In this document: positions 334 to 3,288 of the stretch, one piece after another
Layout of the letters: every line of letters begins with the position of its first letter
Numbering within the stretch: the first letter of the stretch is position 1
NCBI GenBank assembly: GCA_949299755.1
Contig: CASGBA010000018.1
Coordinates: forward strand, 1-41,928
Length of the DNA stretch: 41,928 nucleotides
Direction: 5' to 3'
From: an uncultured Treponema sp.
GTDB lineage: Bacteria > Spirochaetota > Spirochaetia > Treponematales > Treponemataceae
Notes under the pieces: generated by a model
Told to the model about the DNA's origin: nothing
Database searches by the model: none
Seen by the model: only the letters and a program-made list of their open reading frames with translations
Program-made: the position numbers and the translations under genes

Positions 334-3288
<2,955 letters not shown>

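Follow-up and report, generated by a model that had tools for sequence, protein, structure and literature searches.

The closest described counterparts of the locus analysed here are 23S rRNA alleles of other spirochaetes. In Treponema pallidum, A2058G and A2059G confer macrolide resistance, and the two 23S copies were homozygous where sequenced, as stated in the excerpted text of PMC6646400. The same excerpts report that mixed 2058/2059 profiles in 7 of 122 T. pallidum genomes were mostly put down to foreign reads, warn that such reads in the 23S region distort calls at these positions, and mention that 23S heterozygosity has been described in T. denticola. In Brachyspira hyodysenteriae, T or G at 2058 tracks resistance to lincomycin and tylvalosin, and A748 has been linked in part to Brachyspira lincomycin resistance, according to the excerpts of PMC9927316. 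At the level of the ribosome, the desosamine 2'-OH of macrolides bonds to N1 of A2058, and either G2058 or methylation at 2058 leads to MLS-B resistance; eukaryotic ribosomes carry G2058 (PMC11239830, in excerpt).

Here we describe a G at the position equivalent to 2058 in a 23S rRNA gene on a stretch of 41,928 nucleotides (the window), which is the whole of contig C18 of a 2.35 Mb assembly (23 contigs, 99.2% complete). The allele resembles the A2058G of SS14-type T. pallidum in base and position, and in lying in a spirochaete with two 23S copies, here inferred as operons; unlike T. pallidum, the organism of the window belongs to a different genus. Lee et al. (2002, as cited in PMC6646400) are said to have described a 23S point mutation in erythromycin-resistant T. 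denticola, which is reported to be A2058G. That case, too, concerns a 23S point mutation in a treponeme, with heterozygosity there, as far as the excerpts of its source go, and possibly here, but again the genus is a different one. Brachyspira is a more distant spirochaete. The 2058 alleles of B. hyodysenteriae occupy the same position and are linked to lincomycin and tylvalosin resistance, with T or G there and G here (PMC9927316, in excerpt). With eukaryotic ribosomes the window shares G2058 and, by prediction, the basis of drug insensitivity (PMC11239830, in excerpt), but G2058 is conserved in eukaryotes, and the bacteria in our comparison mostly have A.

Results

The window contains one complete bacterial 23S rRNA gene, found as a single cmscan match at 336-3287 on the forward strand (RF02541, model positions 1-2925 of 2925, 2733.2 bits). 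Its peptidyl-transferase loop strand, GACGGGAAGACC (2434-2445, forward strand), corresponds to E. coli 2053-2064, and position 2439 on the same strand, the equivalent of E. coli 2058, holds G in place of the consensus A. In a cmscan alignment of 2250-3100 (911.7 bits), position 2439 falls on a strongly conserved consensus A, with the top posterior probability and gap-free surroundings. This consensus A, which lies at about RF02541 model position 2084 by a hand count from the alignment block, is the first unpaired base 3' of the paired GG/G2057 position, as expected. When the gene is aligned globally with E. coli K-12 rrlB, 2439 is 2058, and 2438 and 2440 are G2057 and A2059. The original prediction held that G2439 is the equivalent of A2058 and that it is the single change in the macrolide-binding loop; both statements are borne out by the secondary-structure-model and E. 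coli alignments, in which G2439 stays at 2058 and does not move elsewhere.

Compared with E. coli, 41 of 44 drug-site positions are the same, and 748, 2058 and 2586 differ. The differences at 748 and 2586 can be ruled out as oddities, since the A at 748 is the family norm (28 of the 28 family rows with this column), as is the C at 2586 (31/31 family rows). Position 2058 is therefore the sole oddity among the 44 drug-site positions checked.

Otherwise, the 23S is intact and ordinary for the Treponemataceae-like family. Near-invariant columns are broken at 10 of 1357 positions, compared with 0 to 36 breaks in the 31 family rows (leave-one-out), and so there is no sign of sequence noise. Of 923 columns that do not vary among the other rows, the window deviates at 2, and of 1483 family-invariant columns at 7, 2439 not being one of them; the minimum was 50 filled rows for calling a column invariant or near-invariant across all rows, and 25 for calling it family-invariant. 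These comparisons draw on a BLAST alignment of 75 loci that yielded 74 rows (L108, which is not 23S, gave none), the rows of L005, L006 and L101 covering part of the gene only. In the tree, the window 23S and the 31 other family rows form one clade with 100/100 support, and the letter make-up of the window and of some other rows was flagged as unlike that of the remaining rows.

A search of the assembly for 23S found one gene, the window copy, and no second; a search for 16S gave none. The surroundings of the 5S rRNA nevertheless reveal a further operon. Downstream of the window's 5S (3368-3479, forward strand), the rrn operon is flanked by a PhoH-family gene (3528-4595, forward strand; Pfam PF02562, E 1.6e-81). 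Contig C21 begins within a 5S, and its first 100 bases equal window positions 3391-3490; after these 100 bases the sequences part, and C21 carries a TrkH gene (Pfam E 2e-60) where the window has phoH. In the congener G002, one contig (its C18) aligns with the window's phoH flank from the 5S onward at 77%, and another (its C19) shows a 72% match to C21 across 3 kb. Two 5S junctions, with phoH and with trkH, are thus present and are both shared with G002, which argues for two rrn operons in the genus, and the common 5S-phoH junction also speaks for correct assembly at that end. The other congener, G001, has two contigs with a 5S each (L104 and L105), and their surroundings are rearranged relative to the window's genome: on one, the 7TM-HD region lies closer to the 5S than in the window, and on the other, C21-like stretches run in the opposite direction. 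A second rrn operon is therefore present whose 23S was not separately assembled. The assembled 23S is either a collapsed pair or one of the two operons, and the genotype claim covers this assembled 23S only.

The remainder of the window has the following gene content. A tRNA-Ile (GAT) lies upstream of the 23S at 96-171 on the forward strand, and the order after the 5S is phoH, a gene for a 7TM-HD protein, ybeY and a CorC-like gene. An ATP:guanido phosphotransferase gene (20546-21652, forward strand) is followed by a Clp-type AAA gene (21655-24201, forward strand), a pair that we take to resemble McsB-ClpC. On the reverse strand, 25585-27243 encodes a 552-aa protein with a uridine-kinase-like C-terminal half; its residues 78-201 give a weak match, below cut-off, to a ThrRS model.

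Erm methylation and MacB-type export were considered as other routes to macrolide resistance. The assembly encodes one RrnaAD protein, which is KsgA (228.9 bits against a ksgA cut-off of 171) and which reaches none of the listed Erm cut-offs. An Erm methyltransferase is thus ruled out as the resistance route, as the only Erm-like gene is that for KsgA. MacB-like Pfam matches in the window were likewise rejected as macrolide exporters, since bearing this Pfam name does not show that a protein exports macrolides. The window holds two MacB_PCD/FtsX permeases flanking an ABC ATPase, presumably a layout resembling that of lipoprotein export (Lol).

We then compared base 2058 across genome collections. 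Within the family, the G pattern occurs in 1 of 274 genomes, namely the window's own, and the A pattern, which was longer than the non-A pattern used for the family search, in 40; the other 233 match neither. A pattern for any non-A base gave three family genomes: the window's own with G, G003 with T and G210 with C. The match in G210 lies outside any 23S, is not similar to the 23S of the window and was dropped as due to chance. Pattern-readable family genomes hence number 42, of which 40 have A, one G and one T. Loci from 30 of the 40 A genomes were taken into the row comparison. Of 62 other aligned rows, 57 have A and five have T in column 2439; apart from E. coli and G003, the aligned rows were chosen by patterns that fix the bases beside 2439, and the neighbouring bases are for that reason not fairly comparable.

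Across the phylum, 2 of 392 genomes match the G pattern (the window's genome and G495) and 126 of 392 match the A/C/T pattern. T at 2058 occurs in at least four genomes of the spirochaete genus g85, which may be Brachyspira (L058, L060, L062 and L070), and the remaining g85 members among the matches listed have A. In G495, a small-genome spirochaete of another family, one 23S copy has G and another has A. The two copies are adjacent (L050) and lie in stretches 93.8% alike across 3.1 kb. At near-invariant columns the G2058 copy of G495 shows 128 deviations versus 61 in the A copy, and the former may be in decay or poorly sequenced.

The exact 23-base G pattern gave 11 matches, from several phyla by title, among 84,980 genomes of named species. 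This count is not a frequency, since its base would be the number of genomes holding a 23S, the pattern passes over other sequence contexts, and the collection may exclude records of the window. All 11 prove to be 23S by alignment and carry G in column 2439. Three G2058 Actinobacteria (L034, L041 and L042), whose 23S are 83-91% alike, may represent a lineage with natural G2058. Three G2058 matches with 'Sandtown' in the title (L035, L037 and L043) are assigned by name to three phyla, with 23S that are 74-78% alike and so not copies of a single sequence. A scan of viral contigs for a base other than A in the sequence context of the window gave no match, and a literature search found no report of A2058G linked with metagenome-assembled genomes.

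The 23S rows nearest to the window are those of G029 (A at 2058; 90.4%) and G003 (T; 90.2% over the covered part). G029 has A in all four of its matches. G003 (L101) is a near relative from another genus, and its T at 2058 is a base tied to resistance in Brachyspira in the excerpts of PMC9927316. The trees do not settle the branching order of the window, G003 and G029 at the base. Forcing the window and G003 together, in a comparison that excluded column 2439, made the tree 13.5 log units worse, and this grouping was not rejected (p-AU 0.106). The assemblies of the congeners G001 and G002 were searched, and neither gave a 23S match.

Discussion

Our results make it highly probable that the window carries a genuine 23S allele of the A2058G type, that is, a target-site MLS-B resistance genotype, probably derived in the window's lineage. 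As read from the sequence, a classical target-site MLS-B resistance genotype is the likeliest meaning of G2439; it is a known kind of allele in a new host. That A2058G causes macrolide resistance in treponemes and other bacteria, a further element of the original prediction, is well founded in the excerpts of PMC6646400, PMC9927316 and PMC11239830. In the peptide exit tunnel, macrolides, lincosamides and streptogramin B all make contact with A2058; a G there would weaken this contact, and ribosomes built from the G2058 gene are therefore predicted to be resistant to all three. The G would have arisen on the window's lineage from an ancestor with A. Were both operons to carry G, in keeping with the homozygous T. 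pallidum copies in the excerpts of PMC6646400, the cell would be highly resistant, and less so if the second operon had A.

How the allele came about is a separate question, on which we lean towards a mutation derived within the window's lineage over a fixed natural allele. The chances are roughly even that this mutation was acquired recently under antibiotic exposure, as in the syphilis treponemes and Brachyspira. Such acquisition is the usual route of 2058 alleles in spirochaetes, going by the excerpts of PMC6646400 and PMC9927316, and among readable family genomes G is confined to that of the window. The pattern in g85, where at least four genomes have T and the other members among the matches listed have A, points in the same direction. 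However, the window's species is represented by one strain in the comparison.

A natural allele fixed in the lineage is a less probable but still credible origin. On this account a branch comprising the window's genus, and perhaps that of the T-bearing G003, no longer requires A2058, and its members would, with the same limited probability, be insensitive to macrolides whether or not they had been exposed to such drugs. The non-A base in one of the two nearest relatives compared is consistent with such a branch, as are the lack of resolution among the window, G003 and G029, in which grouping the first two is not rejected, and the scattered named lineages with G2058, including the three Actinobacteria. 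Against it, G029, about equally near, has A throughout its matches, the constrained tree is worse, if not significantly, and neither congener assembly gave a 23S in which a shared G could be read. Moreover, the bases differ, and G in the window versus T in G003 suggests separate events. The broader proposal that A2058 is unconstrained in a deep Treponemataceae-like branch, with G and T fixed independently of drugs in neighbouring genera and a bacterial lineage naturally insensitive to macrolides as the result, strikes us as improbable.

It is rather unlikely that the G belongs to only one of the two rrn operons, or to one of several co-assembled strains, and that the assembler printed that branch. 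The two rrn flanks with one assembled 23S between them would fit such a mixture, as would G495 with its G copy and A copy, and heterozygosity is reported for T. denticola in the excerpts of PMC6646400, which on the other side describe T. pallidum copies as homozygous where sequenced. The printed 23S may in any case merge two operons or several strains into one consensus. Very little probability attaches to an assembly error or a foreign organism's 23S in the bin: rRNA is often misassembled or misbinned in draft assemblies, and the assembly yielded no 16S, but the 23S is continuous on one contig with 38 kb of other DNA, the congener G002 keeps the 5S-phoH junction, and the 23S branches within the family with a clean sequence.

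In conclusion, the genuine, derived A2058G-type allele that we favor has consequences for how resistance is read from genomes. Where two rrn operons collapse, the single 23S of a draft assembly is insufficient for a genotype. If the G is real in both operons, a treponeme-like genus would join the bacteria predicted to be resistant to macrolides and lincosamides without an acquired gene, and target-site resistance of this kind would be missed by gene-based resistance surveys.
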